Below are positions 14,424 through 21,090 of a DNA stretch of 48,755 nucleotides, piece by piece; position 1 is the stretch's first letter; each line of letters begins with the position of its first letter. Source of the DNA: a bacterium (lineage in GTDB: Bacteria > Electryoneota > RPQS01); NCBI GenBank assembly GCA_026394155.1, contig JAPKYT010000077.1:1-48755 (forward strand). Reading direction: 5' to 3'. Both the position numbers and the translations under genes were made by a program. Below the pieces are notes generated by a model. That model searched no databases. It saw only the letters and a program-made list of their open reading frames with translations, and was not told the origin of the DNA.

Positions 14424-14499
14424 GCACCCATAGCTCAACTGGTAGAGCAACTGACTCTTAATCAGTAGGTTTAGGGTTCGAGTCCCTGTGGGTGCACCA
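14424..14499 (+). tRNA. tRNA-Lys (anticodon CTT)
   Basis: A full cloverleaf can be drawn: acceptor GCACCCA/TGGGTGC (7 pairs), D-arm GCTC/GAGC, anticodon arm ACTGA-CTCTTAA-TCAGT with anticodon CTT, T-arm TAGGG-TTCGAGT-CCCTG, discriminator A and encoded CCA at 14497-14499. It has its own promoter and terminator. Adjacent integrase remains suggest it has served as an integration target. Confidence 0.95.
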
Positions 14500-14743: not shown

Positions 14744-15391
14744 TCAGTAGGGCAGCTTCTCTACTGTCTTGGCAAGGTGCCCAGGGCTGAGATGGCTGTA
14801 GATCATGGTCACGGAGACATCGTGATGCCCCAGCATCTCCTGAACGGATCGAATGTCCACGCCCGCCATGATCAAGTGGGAGGCAAAGGTGTGCCGCAAC
14901 GTGTGCAGGGACACATGGCCGTCAAATCCAGCCCGCTTCACCGCCTTTCGGAAATCCTGTCCGAGGGTCCAGTAGTTGACATTGAAGACGGTGTCGTCCG
15001 CAGAGTGGGGAGCAGCCTGCATTTCCGTCAACACGGCGGAAAGCTGCGGATTGACCGGCACGACCCTGGATCTGCCGGACTTGGTGCGAAAGTCCTCCTT
15101 GTTCTGGACCGTGATCGTCCTGCGTTCCATGTCCACGTCAGACCACTGCAAGTGGACGATCTCATCACGCCGCAACCCTGTCCACAAGGCGAAGTCCACC
15201 ACTCGACGCAGGTCTGTGTCATCCCCGATGGCTTCTCGGAGCTTCTGAATCTCCGCTTCATTGAGGTACCGCAGGTGCGTATTTCGCGGCACCCGTGTCA
15301 GCTTCACCTGGGCGGCAGGGTTGGTCTTGACATACCCCTTGCGGTGCGCCCAGGCGAACGCTACTTTCAGATGTCGCAGGGCCACGTTCAC
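14744..15391 (-). pseudogene. Tyrosine integrase, N-terminally truncated
   Basis: A 215-residue frame, starting at a GTG, that carries the catalytic domain of a tyrosine recombinase: Arg in WTGLRRDEI, HxxR in SLHTLRHTFAS, His in LGHHDVSV and Tyr in MIYSHL. The family is normally 300-400 residues; most of the core-binding domain is missing. The frame stays open about 100 nt further upstream but into sequence that reads as the end of a different gene on the other strand, so the 5' part was probably deleted. It points toward tRNA-Lys, as expected for an integrase next to its target. Probably inactive. Confidence 0.75.
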
Positions 15392-16030: not shown

Positions 16031-17638
16031 TTGAGACTCGCAACTCACTCTTGGAGACTCTGCTTAGTTGCCGCGCTTCTGTGGGCAACGCAAGCCTCCG
16101 CCATTTGGCCCTTTGGTTCTTCGGCCAGCTACGAAGCTCGTGAGACAGAGCGCACGGCGCAACTTCTCCTGAGATCACACCGCTACAACGAGGCGGTTCA
16201 CCTGCTTCAGACGGAGCTGAATACTCAGCCCGTCGGCCAGTGGCGCTTTCAGCTGACAATGATGCTGGCGGAGGGAGAGGTCGGGCTCGGCGACTCGCTG
16301 GGTCTGGCGGCAACGCTGGCACAGGCCGAAACCATTGCCCGCAAGCCGTTACAACTCAAGGATATTCAGCGCTACCGGAAGAGGCTTGAAGAACTGCGGG
16401 CGATACCCGTGCTGACACCCGTCACGGCTGACAGTTCTCGCGCAGCGGCTGCCCTAATTGACACGACCACGTCCGGCGCGGACGAGACGCTGCTTCGCGT
16501 CCTGGTGACCAACTCGTTCTTTGAGACGGATCTGCGGCAAGTGCTTTCGGATCTTGCCACACAAACGGGAACACCGATTGTCTGGGATCCCACGGTCAAG
16601 GGTCTTGTCACCTACGAGGCAAAGGAGCAACCTCTCGACAAGGTGCTGGAGGCGATTCTCCTGCCTGCCGGCTTCGGTTACACTTATCGTGGCGGCATCG
16701 TATATGTGGGATCTACGAGTCCCAGTGATGCCAGTTTCGGTCTCATTTCGCGCACGGAAGTCATCACCCTCGCAAACACTGATGCCACAGACGCTATCGC
16801 TCAACTCTCGGAGTATTTTCAACCCTATGTGCGGGCGTCCAAAATTTCCAATACGGTCACCGTCACGGCACCGGCAGCTACTGTCAGCAGGATTCGCTCC
16901 GACCTGAAGCAACTGGACAAACCGCCAGCGCAGATCATGATTGAAGTGGTCGTCTGCGAATTCTCCGAAGATGCTCTGCGTCAAATGGGGCTGGACTGGT
17001 CGCTCACACGGACGGAAGGTCGAAATCCATCCTGGCAAGTTGGAGCACAGCACACCGACATTGCCAATCCATCCTTAGCAGGCACGTACACCGACATCGG
17101 ATACAAGATCGGCAACTATACGGCCGATCTGACTGCCTCGCTTCAGGCGCTGGTGGAATCCGGCCAAGCGGAGATCCGTGCCAAACCGCGCATCACGACT
17201 CTCAACGGTCGTACCGCCCAGATCAGTCTGACCACGGATCAGTATTTTGTCATCCAGACCGGCGGCACTCAGTACTACCAGTACAACACGCTGCAGTCGG
17301 TGAGTTCCGGAATCAAGTTGGAGATCACTCCTTACGTCGCTTCGACCTCAGATGAAATCACGTTGTACGTCAAGCCGGAAGTGGGGGATGTGGTCGGCGC
17401 GGGTGCGCAGGGATTGCCTGAAATCAACAAACGCACGGCCAGTACTTCGGTGCGGGTACATGATGGGGAAACGTTCACGGTGGGGGGACTGAACTTGCAG
17501 CGTCAGAAGCTTTTGCAGCGGAAGATCCCTTTCCTTGGAGACATTCCGCTCTTGGGCTATCTCTTTCGCTATGACGAGCGGCAGTTCAAAGACACCGAGA
17601 TCATCATCTTTGTCACCCCGCATCTGCTCGCTCGTTAG
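16031..17638 (+). CDS. Secretin-type outer-membrane channel (GspD/PilQ fold)
   Basis: A 535-residue protein read from a TTG at 16031; no ATG or GTG exists in frame before the upstream stop, and there is no clear RBS, so the start is tentative. Residues 1-24 are a signal peptide. About 30-125 is a helical, TPR-like region (ETERTAQLLLRSHRYNEAV). About 150-225 is an STN/N0-like domain (FFETDLRQVLSDLATQTG). About 240-305 is an N1-type ring domain. From 310 the secretin domain follows, with IEVVVCEFSEDALRQMG and the hallmark IPFLGDIPLLGYLFR near 505. It should form a gated outer-membrane pore. No other type II/IV pilus genes are adjacent, which is unusual. Confidence 0.85.
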   Translation: MRLATHSWRLCLVAALLWATQASAIWPFGSSASYEARETERTAQLLLRSHRYNEAVHLLQTELNTQPVGQWRFQLTMMLAEGEVGLGDSLGLAATLAQAETIARKPLQLKDIQRYRKRLEELRAIPVLTPVTADSSRAAAALIDTTTSGADETLLRVLVTNSFFETDLRQVLSDLATQTGTPIVWDPTVKGLVTYEAKEQPLDKVLEAILLPAGFGYTYRGGIVYVGSTSPSDASFGLISRTEVITLANTDATDAIAQLSEYFQPYVRASKISNTVTVTAPAATVSRIRSDLKQLDKPPAQIMIEVVVCEFSEDALRQMGLDWSLTRTEGRNPSWQVGAQHTDIANPSLAGTYTDIGYKIGNYTADLTASLQALVESGQAEIRAKPRITTLNGRTAQISLTTDQYFVIQTGGTQYYQYNTLQSVSSGIKLEITPYVASTSDEITLYVKPEVGDVVGAGAQGLPEINKRTASTSVRVHDGETFTVGGLNLQRQKLLQRKIPFLGDIPLLGYLFRYDERQFKDTEIIIFVTPHLLAR

Positions 17639-17639
17639 G

Positions 17640-17681
17640 CCCCTCCTTTTCCCCCACTGTGTGGGGGAAATACAAAGGGGT
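17640..17681 (+). repeat. C/G-run palindromic repeat, copy C (divergent)
   Basis: CCCCTCCTTTTCCCCCAC, 3-nt loop, GTGGGGGAAATACAAAGGGGT: a long imperfect hairpin beginning 2 nt after the secretin stop. It resembles copies A and B in layout (C-run, T-rich step, C-run, G-run, A-rich step, G-run) and in its place after a stop codon, though the sequence is more diverged. It could also limit read-through. Confidence 0.5.
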
Positions 17682-17807
17682 AAGTTCAGTTTTACATTAG
17701 AATTAAATCGAACACTCCGTGCTTTCCGTCCGCCGAGCTGCGGTACGGACCGGGCAAGCACGGATGGACGACTAACCTTCCCCGCGCGGAAGGCATAACC
17801 AAAAAAG

Positions 17808-17915
17808 GCCGGCCCCGGGACTGGCGCGAACCAAATGCCCCGGGGACCGGCTGGGTGAGCACGATCGCTGGCAAAAGTCAGGATCGTCTCGCCTGTTCAA
17901 CAAACCGAACAGGAG
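17808..17915 (+). promoter_or_regulatory. Structured 5' leader with three hairpins
   Basis: Three consecutive inverted repeats lie in the last 120 nt before ATG 17925. Hairpin 1 (17808-17851): GCCGGCCCCGGG pairs with CCCCGGGGACCGGC with a one-base bulge. Hairpin 2 (17861-17887): ACGATCGCTG with CAGGATCGT. Hairpin 3 (17892-17913): CCTGTTC with GAACAGG, whose 3' arm contains the AGG of the AGGAG ribosome binding site. This layout suggests translational control by RNA structure. I compared it mentally with c-di-GMP-I, SAH, THF, glycine and fluoride riboswitches and found no match. Confidence 0.6.
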
Positions 17916-17924
17916 AAAAGTTTC

Positions 17925-18602
17925 ATGAAGTACGTCATTGCAACAATCATGGCCGTTTGCATGATGGCGTTTGCGGCGATGGCCGTTCTTCCGCCACCGC
18001 CGCCGGGCGCCCCCGGCATTCCAGGCGGTTGGGGCGCGAGTTGCGAAGAATACACCGTCTATTCAGTGCCCTGGGGACCTGTCACAGCAATCTACACCCT
18101 CGGTGGTGTAGGTGGTGCCGGCTGGCGTATCTGCCCTGAATGCACAGATCCCATATCCTGGCCTGCGCTGAGTGTCGAGCTGTGGATCGAAATGGAGTGC
18201 GTTTTCTGGTTTCAGTCGACCGAGGCTGACGTTCACCTCTCCAGCTTCTACAATGACTACTGTGTCGCGTTCTACGGCACGAGCGCCTGCAACAACGGCC
18301 AGTGGATCATTGTCAACCCGCCGATGGACCAGAGCCTCGATCAACTGCCCTTCGTCGAGGATATGTGGGGTCGCACAGGCACTAACCACGGAACTCCAAT
18401 TCCAGTGAGTTGGAGCTACTATTTAGACGATGTTGGCCCCCGGGACATGGTTGCGGGTACTGACGGCGCCTACCAGTTCCTAGTACAGCCCTGCAACCAC
18501 TCTTACTACATCCAGCTGTGCTTGCATCCGAAACTCCACCAGGAAGACGGTTACTACACTTGGGCTCAGGGTGGTTTCCTTTGCCCGGCTGAACCCCTGT
18601 AA
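17925..18602 (+). CDS. Secreted Cys-rich protein of unknown function
   Basis: A 225-residue protein with a signal peptide (MKYVIATIMAVCMMAFAAMA) followed by a Pro/Gly stretch (LPPPPPGAPGIPGG) and a beta-rich, aromatic-rich mature domain with about ten Cys residues (CEEY, CPEC, ECVFW, DYCVAFYGTSACNNG, QPCNH, LCLH, LCPAE), which would form disulfides outside the cell. AGGAG precedes ATG 17925 but is part of a hairpin. It follows the secretin gene and precedes an Ig-like protein, so a surface subunit exported through that channel is conceivable; this is inference. Compare the partial secreted protein at 48249, which has a similar signal/Cys style. Confidence 0.7.
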   Translation: MKYVIATIMAVCMMAFAAMAVLPPPPPGAPGIPGGWGASCEEYTVYSVPWGPVTAIYTLGGVGGAGWRICPECTDPISWPALSVELWIEMECVFWFQSTEADVHLSSFYNDYCVAFYGTSACNNGQWIIVNPPMDQSLDQLPFVEDMWGRTGTNHGTPIPVSWSYYLDDVGPRDMVAGTDGAYQFLVQPCNHSYYIQLCLHPKLHQEDGYYTWAQGGFLCPAEPL

Positions 18603-18620
18603 TCGGTATGCTTGAGCCTC

Positions 18621-18651
18621 GATTCCGGCCAAAGCCCGGTTGGCCGGAATC
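18621..18651 (+). terminator. Perfect 12-bp hairpin, no U-tract
   Basis: GATTCCGGCCAA, 7-nt loop, TTGGCCGGAATC, 18 nt after the stop of the 17925 gene. There is no run of T afterwards, so it may stabilise the mRNA end or attenuate rather than terminate. Confidence 0.5.
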
Positions 18652-18695
18652 CGGCTCTGACCCAGAGATTCAATCATTTTGGCATAGGCCATATC

Positions 18696-20390
18696 ATGCA
18701 CCGTTCTCATATCGGACCACCGCCCTGCATTTCCTACCGCACGGATTTACTCCGGAGTGCGGTGTGTACTCTGGCGATTCTAACAGCCTTGATTTTGGCC
18801 CCAGTAGTTACGGGACAGGTTTCCATTATTCCACTGATTCAGGAAATATCCGTTAACCCGGGTGGAAAGACCCAGTTTGACCTGCGAATTGGCAACCGCT
18901 CGGAGCAGACTATGGCCTTTTCCATGCACGGCTCTAACCTCGACATTTCGCAAGAGGGCATTCCATCTCCTCTTGCAGAACAGACCGACTGGAGCTGCGC
19001 CGAATGGATCACCTTCACGCCCAGCGACTTTGAACTGCAGACAGATTCGGTGCAGACTGTTCAGGGTCTTATCAGCGCGCCCGTGGGTGTCGTTGGCGGA
19101 CACTATGCCTTTATCACCTGCCAATATCGGATATCGGCAGAGCCGACGGGTTTTGTTCCTGGGAAAGAGGCAAGGGCCCAGATTGAGTTCGGTCGGGCAG
19201 TATCTTCCACTTTGCTGGTTACTGTCCGCTCGAGCAAGAACGACGTCCAACTCCGGCCTGACAGCCTTCTTCTCGTTTCAGGTCAAGGCGAAAGGCCCGC
19301 CCTGACGCTGGACCGGTCCGCGGCAGGCGGGCCGAATGTCTGGCAGGTTACAGTTCCGGTGACGAACACCGGCAATCTTCACACGGTAGCCACCGGACAG
19401 GTGAGCATTTGGACCGAGGACCTGAGACTGGTGGAACGAGCAGACCTGCTCGCCGGAAAGGGCTTCGTTCTTCCCCGGAAAAGCCGACTGTTCAAAGCAC
19501 AGGGCACGAGACCACTCGATGACGGAACCTATATGGTTCGGGTAGCGCTCCGAAGCCGTGAAGGCAAATTCACCGGTGGTTCGTTTCCATTTTACATTGT
19601 GCAGGGAACGCCCACATCTGATGTTCCCACCGAAACAATTCGGGACATCATGGAGGCGTTCACACCGAAATTCGGACTCTCAAAGAACCTCCTGGATTTT
19701 GCGGTGACACCCAATGCAAGAAGAACCGGTGGCATCCGCCTGACGAACTATTCACAGGATACATTGTCAATTATAGCCAGGCCTGTCACATGGACGATGG
19801 ATGACATCGGGAAGGTGGTCCTTGAACCAGATCCCTCGCAACTCATCAACCCCTGCGTGTCGTGGCTGGACGTATCGCCGAATCCCATCGTCATTCTGCC
19901 AAAAAGCGGGGCAATGGCGAAGGTGACCGTCGCGGCCCCAGAAGAAGTAGAAGGGGAGTACTACGCAGCGATTGTCTTTGAGACCGGTGAGATGCGAAAG
20001 GATTTGCCTGCCGAACTCCAGCTTGGCCGAACCGCACTCATCATGGTTGCATCCGCGACAGGCCTGGTGAGGAAGGCCACGATTGAGGTGACCGCCTATA
20101 AACCCATTAGTCCATTGATGCGAACCTTCACGATCAATGTGGTCAACGCCGGCAATGTGCACTGCTTTGCCTCGGGAAAGCTCACGATCTTGGACAAGAA
20201 TTGGAAGGCCGTGCTGGAGCCAATCACTTTTGGCGGTCCCCAAGATTATCTTCTGCCCGGTAAGAGCTACACTTATGTGGCGCCTTGTGCAGGCGCCCTT
20301 GAACGAGGCCGCTACTCCGCGGTCGTTGAGGTAGAATATAGCGAGGAAGCTCGCTCTGAAGTCACGGAGTACTACTTTGATGCTAAGTGA
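18696..20390 (+). CDS. Exported Ig-like, pilus-chaperone-like protein
   Basis: The ORF opens at 18612, inside the hairpin. ATG 18696 leaves a long signal sequence (hydrophobic core SAVCTLAILTALILAPVVTG) and a 564-residue product. The mature part is a series of beta-sandwich domains: an N-terminal fimbrial-chaperone-like segment (ISVNPGGKTQFDLRIGNRS, about 48-160), a second near 205-300 with an alternating motif VPVTNTGNLHTVATGQVSIW, a third at about 345-455 (FAVTPNARRTGGIRLTNYS) and a fourth whose INVVNAGNVHCFASGKLTI repeats the second. The duplicated domain pairs suggest an internal duplication. It may hold or scaffold secreted subunits in the periplasm. Exact family not recognised. Confidence 0.65.
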   Translation: MHRSHIGPPPCISYRTDLLRSAVCTLAILTALILAPVVTGQVSIIPLIQEISVNPGGKTQFDLRIGNRSEQTMAFSMHGSNLDISQEGIPSPLAEQTDWSCAEWITFTPSDFELQTDSVQTVQGLISAPVGVVGGHYAFITCQYRISAEPTGFVPGKEARAQIEFGRAVSSTLLVTVRSSKNDVQLRPDSLLLVSGQGERPALTLDRSAAGGPNVWQVTVPVTNTGNLHTVATGQVSIWTEDLRLVERADLLAGKGFVLPRKSRLFKAQGTRPLDDGTYMVRVALRSREGKFTGGSFPFYIVQGTPTSDVPTETIRDIMEAFTPKFGLSKNLLDFAVTPNARRTGGIRLTNYSQDTLSIIARPVTWTMDDIGKVVLEPDPSQLINPCVSWLDVSPNPIVILPKSGAMAKVTVAAPEEVEGEYYAAIVFETGEMRKDLPAELQLGRTALIMVASATGLVRKATIEVTAYKPISPLMRTFTINVVNAGNVHCFASGKLTILDKNWKAVLEPITFGGPQDYLLPGKSYTYVAPCAGALERGRYSAVVEVEYSEEARSEVTEYYFDAK

Positions 20391-20436
20391 CGCGAAGCCG
20401 CACTGCTTTCCATTGGAACGCAGCGAGTAGCGAACA

Positions 20437-21090
20437 ATGACAATGACAGAAGAATATTCTCCTGCAAAACTTCGGCTTGTCTGCCGTGCGATGTGCGGGA
20501 TACTCCTCATGGTCTGCTGTGCAGTGCTTGATCAGCCGGTATTGGCGCAGGCAAACACAACACCTGTCGCTGTGTTAGTGCCGCCCTCAAAGGTTTCGGG
20601 GAATGGTCCGGCCGCTTCCAAAGGGATCCCCGACCTGACCAAGGACTTCATCCTCAATTTTCGGAAAGGTCCCGTCCCTGAAAGAATGCCAAGCGTGAGC
20701 CTGGCACTGGACTGGACGACGTGTCAGGTCCATCGCGTAAATGATCACGCACCCCTCGACATCACGTTGAACGGAAACATTACGTCCGACATCGCAACAA
20801 TCTGGACGCTTACTCCGCAGGCTGTTGGCCCGGCGAATCTGAACCGCGTCGAGGACGTAATGGGGCGGCGCGATGCGGCGGGCCGGACAACCGTTCCGCT
20901 GACTTGGACCATTTCGCTCGATGGCGGGGCGTTTGAGCCTATGCATGTGACGCCTGACTACACAATCACGACGGTGTTTCCGCCGGGAATGCACACTTTC
21001 AAGGTTCAACTCTCCGGCCCTCTTCAACCCAATCAGCCCAATGGGTACTACCGGTTGCAGCTTGCGCAGAATTTGATGCCGCAACTGTAA
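20437..21090 (+). CDS. Exported hypothetical protein
   Basis: A 217-residue protein with an N-terminal signal sequence preceded by about 15 polar residues (hydrophobic core MCGILLMVCCAVLDQPVLA). The mature region has a disordered Pro/Ser/Lys linker (about 45-75) and a beta-rich domain (VSLALDWTTCQVHRVNDHAPLDITL... TVPLTWTISLDGG... YYRLQLAQNLMPQL) that could be an Ig-like or pilin-like sandwich. It starts 46 bp after the Ig-like protein and probably belongs to the same transcript. Function unknown. Confidence 0.6.
   Translation: MTMTEEYSPAKLRLVCRAMCGILLMVCCAVLDQPVLAQANTTPVAVLVPPSKVSGNGPAASKGIPDLTKDFILNFRKGPVPERMPSVSLALDWTTCQVHRVNDHAPLDITLNGNITSDIATIWTLTPQAVGPANLNRVEDVMGRRDAAGRTTVPLTWTISLDGGAFEPMHVTPDYTITTVFPPGMHTFKVQLSGPLQPNQPNGYYRLQLAQNLMPQL

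Follow-up and report, generated by a model that had tools for sequence, protein, structure and literature searches.

A conserved, apparently cis-regulatory leader RNA precedes a secretin-linked secreted-protein gene in Candidatus Zixiibacteriota

Gene A of the DNA stretch analysed here (48,755 nt, referred to as the window) is preceded by a structured leader of ~200 nt, starting at 17716, which is real and conserved and is apparently an undescribed cis-regulatory RNA; six more genomes of Candidatus Zixiibacteriota (making seven in total) have it before genes homologous to A. Its conserved structure, the pairing of its Shine-Dalgarno (SD) sequence, a CC dinucleotide shared by two of its stems and its association with one gene family are all computed directly, and conservation, covariation and gene association extend across at least three families. 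It is somewhat more likely than not that this undescribed Ca. Zixiibacteriota RNA controls the translation of A by means of a switch between two hairpins, P4 and P5, with a ligand (a small molecule being favoured) bound at P1-P3.

The preliminary description of this region reported three consecutive hairpins before ATG 17925, the third covering the ribosome binding site, and folding bore this out. Positions 17800-17940 (141 nt) fold at -60.7 kcal/mol compared with -41.5 +/- 3.9 kcal/mol for dinucleotide-shuffled sequences (z = -4.88), none of 200 shuffles being as stable, and the third hairpin, with seven continuous Watson-Crick pairs, includes the AGG (17911-17913) of the SD sequence. These hairpins (17807-17913), here named P3, P4 and P5, form the 3′ part of an element whose real start lies ~90 nt further 5′, P1 and P2 having been missed. 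Folding of the whole gap from the secretin gene to the ATG gave z = -5.6, with extra structure 5′ of the three hairpins, and that of 17716-17927 gave z = -5.3. Nor are the three simply consecutive stems, for while all of them fold, P4 and P5 overlap at C17892-C17893 and are never both complete.

In 5′ to 3′ order the leader comprises P1, which carries the CCGGGY bulge, a P2 that is optional, a linker rich in A, then P3 and P4, and finally P5 over the SD sequence (Table 1). The consensus of P4 is GG(G/U/C)GAG...CUCGCC with a variable arm, and the apical part of P3 has YUGG in all eight full copies with GAACC usually present. The invariant unpaired CCGGGY together with YUGG..GAACC point to a specific recognition surface. 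The bulge could form a pseudoknot with the YUGG loop in P3 (four pairs, one of them G-U), but as the letters show no covariation this is no more than an idea. Rejected was an upstream ORF, a seven-codon ATG frame in the P3 of the window with no counterpart in the G025 and G028 sequences read.

Table 1. Features of the leader and of the adjoining gene cluster in the window (hairpins numbered as in the preliminary description).
Feature	Position	Strand	Evidence
P1: 9-bp outer stem (17716-17724 / 17756-17764) with inner hairpin of variable length	17716..17764	+	Covariation, 8 leaders
Bulge on 3′ side of P1, CCGGGC, 6 nt (consensus CCGGGY)	17750..17755	+	Invariant, 8/8 full copies, 7 genomes
P2: optional 6-bp hairpin	17776..17793	+	Present in window and G023 copies; absent from G022, G025, G028, G034, L058
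A-rich linker: consensus AUAAAAAA then GCCG	17794..17806	+	Alignment
P3 (hairpin 1): GC-rich stem, conserved apical segment YUGG..GAACC	17807..17852	+	Fold, alignment
P4 (hairpin 2): GGUGAG...CUCGCC, variable arm	17854..17893	+	Fold; equal pairing in G022, G025, G028, G034
P5 (hairpin 3), anti-SD: CCUGUUC (17892-17898) / GAACAGG (17907-17913)	17892..17913	+	6 leaders
CC used by both P4 (in its 3′ strand) and P5 (in its 5′ strand); proposed switch point	17892..17893	+	Overlap in 5 genomes
SD sequence AGGAG, 9 nt before ATG 17925	17911..17915	+	Sequence
Secretin gene (GspD/PilQ-like), 5′ of leader	16031..17638	+	Pfam PF00263, 4.4e-40
Gene A: 225-aa beta-rich secreted protein, proposed controlled gene	17925..18602	+	ORF; family profile 8.7e-65; predicted fold
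Gene B: 592-aa Ig-like, WxLIP-like protein	18612..20390	+	Conserved in 7/39 phylum genomes; profile match EfmWxLIP1, E 0.0016
Gene C: 217-aa protein, C-terminal domain common with A	20437..21090	+	A-family profile 7.6e-9

Relatives of gene A are present in six of 61 related genomes, its own genome included. The leader of the closest relative (locus L010 of genome G023, from another family) can be aligned with the window's leader across the upstream hairpin as well as P3, the common blocks being GGACCGGGYAA, AGGCCG-CCCCGGGA-YUGG, GAACC and CGGC-UGGGUGAG. A covariance model of these two leaders (R1) was run on 39 phylum genomes and matched further copies in G023, G025, G028 and G022, all near the same gene cluster. 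The full alignment of A was too little conserved for a search of the genome collection, but a subset alignment worked, and a protein-alignment scan of GTDB genomes led to L058, a locus reached via its protein and then shown to have the leader.

A second covariance model (R2), built from seven sequences and extending to GGUGAG, begins at the bulge because MAFFT alignment of the full leaders confused P2 with the 3′ strand of P1. Searched against 291 genomes, it matched only six Zixibacteria genomes, with the same set returned by laxer filters and no match among the approximately 250 genomes outside Candidatus Zixiibacteriota. All nine matches of at least 42 bits in these 291 genomes lie directly 5′ of A genes, two of them being upstream tandem partial copies in G025 and G028; the weak matches G028:C109, G028:C12 and G025:C132 were left out of the counts. 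An out-of-sample copy in G034 sits exactly in the gap that separates a secretin gene from the ATG of an A-family gene, and possesses P1 with CCGGGU, P3, P4 and P5. Its A-family gene is cut off by the contig end, its start being independently recognised by the A-family profile (E 6e-4). Genome G023 has a strong copy at two A paralogs and a degenerate copy at the third. Only eight well-formed copies of the leader are known from these searches, and the genome of the window has one. For the leaders G025_2, G028_2 and G022, which share the same topology, z ranges from -6 to -8, and for the G023 copies and L058 from -2.4 to -3.0. The tandem upstream copies (L044 4035-4175, L045 7451-7579 (-)) have kept P3 and P4 and are without P5 and without CCGGGY in P1 context.

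The A-bearing genomes G030 and G033 lack this leader. Their A genes (L047 in G033, L048 in G030; another family) carry a leader hairpin of a different kind, GCACC...GGUGC, which ends about 10-15 nt ahead of the SD sequence. Other elements were also met. G025 possesses a tandem pair of GC-rich elements, each of two hairpins (GGUUGAAGGGACCCUCC...GCGGGACCCG), before another secreted-protein gene (L074 1430-1700 (-)); Rfam gave no match to these elements, and no clear relative of them turned up within the phylum. In G028 a P3/P4-like element (L073, G028:C109:5313-5392 (-), E 0.0015) lies 5′ of a type VI secretion-like operon, judged so from translations only. The window also has a palindrome (CCCCTCCTTTTCCCCCACTGTGTGGGGGAAATACAAAGGGG, 17640-17680) 3′ of the secretin gene. 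This is a dispersed repeat: G000, G001, G003 and G004 have copies that are 79-94% identical, and further members of the family have weaker copies. Classification of the leader itself as a repeat or mobile element was rejected, as its own genome has one copy and the repeated palindrome is separate from it.

Whether homologous leaders keep their pairing was one of two points on which the preliminary description had staked its reading, and they do so in all seven genomes, with P1 and P5 covarying and always before the same gene family. With the stems anchored by hand and by eye, and with kinship of the sequences inflating such counts, 70 of the 72 pairs of P1 are standard in eight leaders and two-sided changes occur at 8/9 pairs (reached by 7/2000 column shuffles), while for P5 all 42 pairs are standard in six leaders with two-sided changes at 5/7 (4/2000 shuffles), one bulged base of the G023a P5 having been left out of the scoring. 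The outer pairs of P3 are standard in 38 of 40 cases, and P4 has too few changes and no covariation support of its own. An independent check of P1, seeking upstream the complement of the nine bases after CCGGGY, gave nine of nine in six of the eight leaders (shuffle probability <= 0.022) and was not significant for G023b and L058.

In the window, G025, G028, G022 and G034, the two bases that end the 3′ strand of P4 also open the 5′ strand of P5, and they are always CC. Folds with a complete P4 and those with a complete P5 are near-equal in energy, the computed gap being 0.5, 1.9, 0.7, 0.3 and 0.3 kcal/mol respectively, partly because two G-C pairs are exchanged for two G-C pairs. P5 alone amounts to -5.7 to -9.0 kcal/mol and falls to -3.1 to 0 kcal/mol minus the two CC pairs; it is therefore the CC which decides the pairing of the GG of the SD sequence. 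The overlap is of only 2 nt; in G023a the two stems merely abut, and G023b, G023c and L058 deviate. In these computed folds, the shared CC and the near-equal energies have the look of an expression platform acting on translation.

In the mechanism proposed, P1 with its bulge, the A-rich linker and P3 would form a sensing or binding domain stacked on P4, with expression controlled through P4 and P5 as the platform. In the state with a complete P5, CC 17892-17893 would pair with the GG of the SD sequence and translation would be off. A complete P4 would engage the CC with the GG at its own base, beside P3, leaving P5 marginal without its two strongest pairs and the SD sequence free. A ligand, for which a small molecule is favoured, may on binding to P1-P3 shift this near-balanced equilibrium. 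That the leader switches, the direction in which it does so and its small-molecule driver are what we infer.

The second of the preliminary description's two points was that transcription should not start 3′ of hairpins 1-2. Neither a sigma-70-like site nor a terminator-like site was found in window positions 17500-18000, and intrinsic attenuation was rejected, there being no terminator hairpin with a U tract before gene A in this interval. Three relatives have their best forward sigma-70-like site 5′ of the whole leader, namely TTGACA-17-TATCAT (L058), TTGACT-17-TATATT (G025) and TTGACT-17-TAGATT (G028). These putative promoters agree with transcription of the full-length leader, for which they are weak evidence.

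The gene cluster, which is uncharacterised and spans 16031-21090 in the window, has the order secretin, A (one to three paralogs), B and C. Protein A has no Pfam or NCBIfam match. The preliminary description took it to be a secreted protein, with which a predicted N-terminal signal-type helix agrees; its further remark that the protein is abundant-looking is unsupported. AlphaFold models of A are beta-rich with an N-terminal hydrophobic helix, and the structures nearest to the better of the two, at low TM-scores, are CFA/I and type 1 pilus subunits, TLP-1a and TasA fibres. EfmWxLIP1, matched by the profile of B, is an enterococcal WxL-interacting protein. That A may be a pilus- or TasA-type fibre subunit, and the cluster a system for surface fibre assembly, is a reasonable but weak guess, weak because the models of A are modest (pLDDT 55 and 66). 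A tRNA gene (14424-14496) and a phage-type integrase gene (14744-15391) are situated near the cluster, which is absent from the other searched members of its own family. It is possible that the secretin/A/B/C region, along with these two genes, is a genomic island.

A small-molecule riboswitch is regarded as more likely than a protein-bound operator, in which P1-P3 would be bound by a protein, for example A, B or a regulator sensing export or assembly, so that synthesis of the subunit would come under feedback control. Bulge-plus-stem RNA elements are typical protein binding sites and the leader has this form; A, B and the secretin are encoded in one cluster, and the leader lies before every A paralog in G023 with strong scores nowhere else. 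However, since A and B leave the cytoplasm, they could regulate themselves directly only if a pool of them stayed there, and the cluster shows no visible link to any RNA-binding protein; an operator is considered rather unlikely. The dense, stable hairpins 3′ of the secretin gene would also suit a constitutive leader which protects the 5′ end of the mRNA and tunes the A:secretin ratio without sensing, as a structural subunit would presumably be needed in excess. For stability alone, though, the invariant unpaired CCGGGY and GAACC would be superfluous, as would the conserved anti-SD hairpin, which lowers translation, and a leader of this kind appears improbable.

The preliminary description had offered a cis-regulatory RNA or a thermosensor, of which the former is upheld by a conserved leader with covariation and the latter is not favoured. 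Melting of P5 by heat would expose the SD sequence which it covers, and the computed energy of P5 alone speaks for this. Yet P5 is continuously Watson-Crick paired, without the imperfect pairs of ROSE and fourU, and forms only the end of a longer element that includes invariant unpaired bases; for a thermosensor the conserved P1-P3 would be superfluous; no Rfam match to the thermometer families ROSE, fourU or cspA was obtained in the leader. Such a role is very unlikely. Least credible of all are chance hairpins or a functionless dispersed repeat, for which the GC-rich region and the unrelated palindromic repeat just 5′ might speak, but against which stand the single leader copy in its own genome and homologs with covariation and gene association.

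A further-reaching and more tentative reading takes the leader as a riboswitch class that is new and peculiar to Ca. Zixiibacteriota, sensing a signal molecule and switching translation of the subunit of an undescribed surface fibre linked to the secretin. If such a switch is confirmed, it would add an RNA class absent from Rfam 15 and provide a compact two-base switch model with a defined target gene, and its signal would reveal when the putative fibre is produced by these uncultured bacteria. The leader also points to an uncharacterised cluster of secretin, beta-rich subunit and WxLIP-like protein, which may build a surface fibre.

The preliminary description recognised no known riboswitch class here, and Rfam 15 concurred, giving only chance-level matches far below gathering scores for the leader of the window (E up to 10) and no match for the leaders of the relatives' loci (E up to 5). 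A literature search found no paper on Zixibacteria and riboswitches together. In keeping with riboswitches in general, the leader has a covarying structured 5′ domain and conserved unpaired nucleotides forming a possible pocket. It resembles translational riboswitches in that a structured domain is followed by what computation suggests is a mutually exclusive SD-hiding stem, in adjoining one gene family and in its tandem partial copies in two genomes, and differs from them in having no known aptamer consensus and in targeting a secreted subunit rather than a metabolic enzyme or transporter. With ROSE and fourU thermometers it has in common a terminal hairpin pairing the SD sequence, although P5 is fully paired, follows a larger conserved domain and has no Rfam match. 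Like autogenous leaders of the ribosomal-protein type, it could repress translation of its own downstream gene; unlike them, it has an exported target. Its restriction to Ca. Zixiibacteriota among the genomes searched sets it apart from orphan riboswitch and structured RNA candidates (Weinberg et al., PMC2864571; review PMC10043782), with which it shares discovery by comparative genomics, covarying stems, invariant loops and a restricted gene context.
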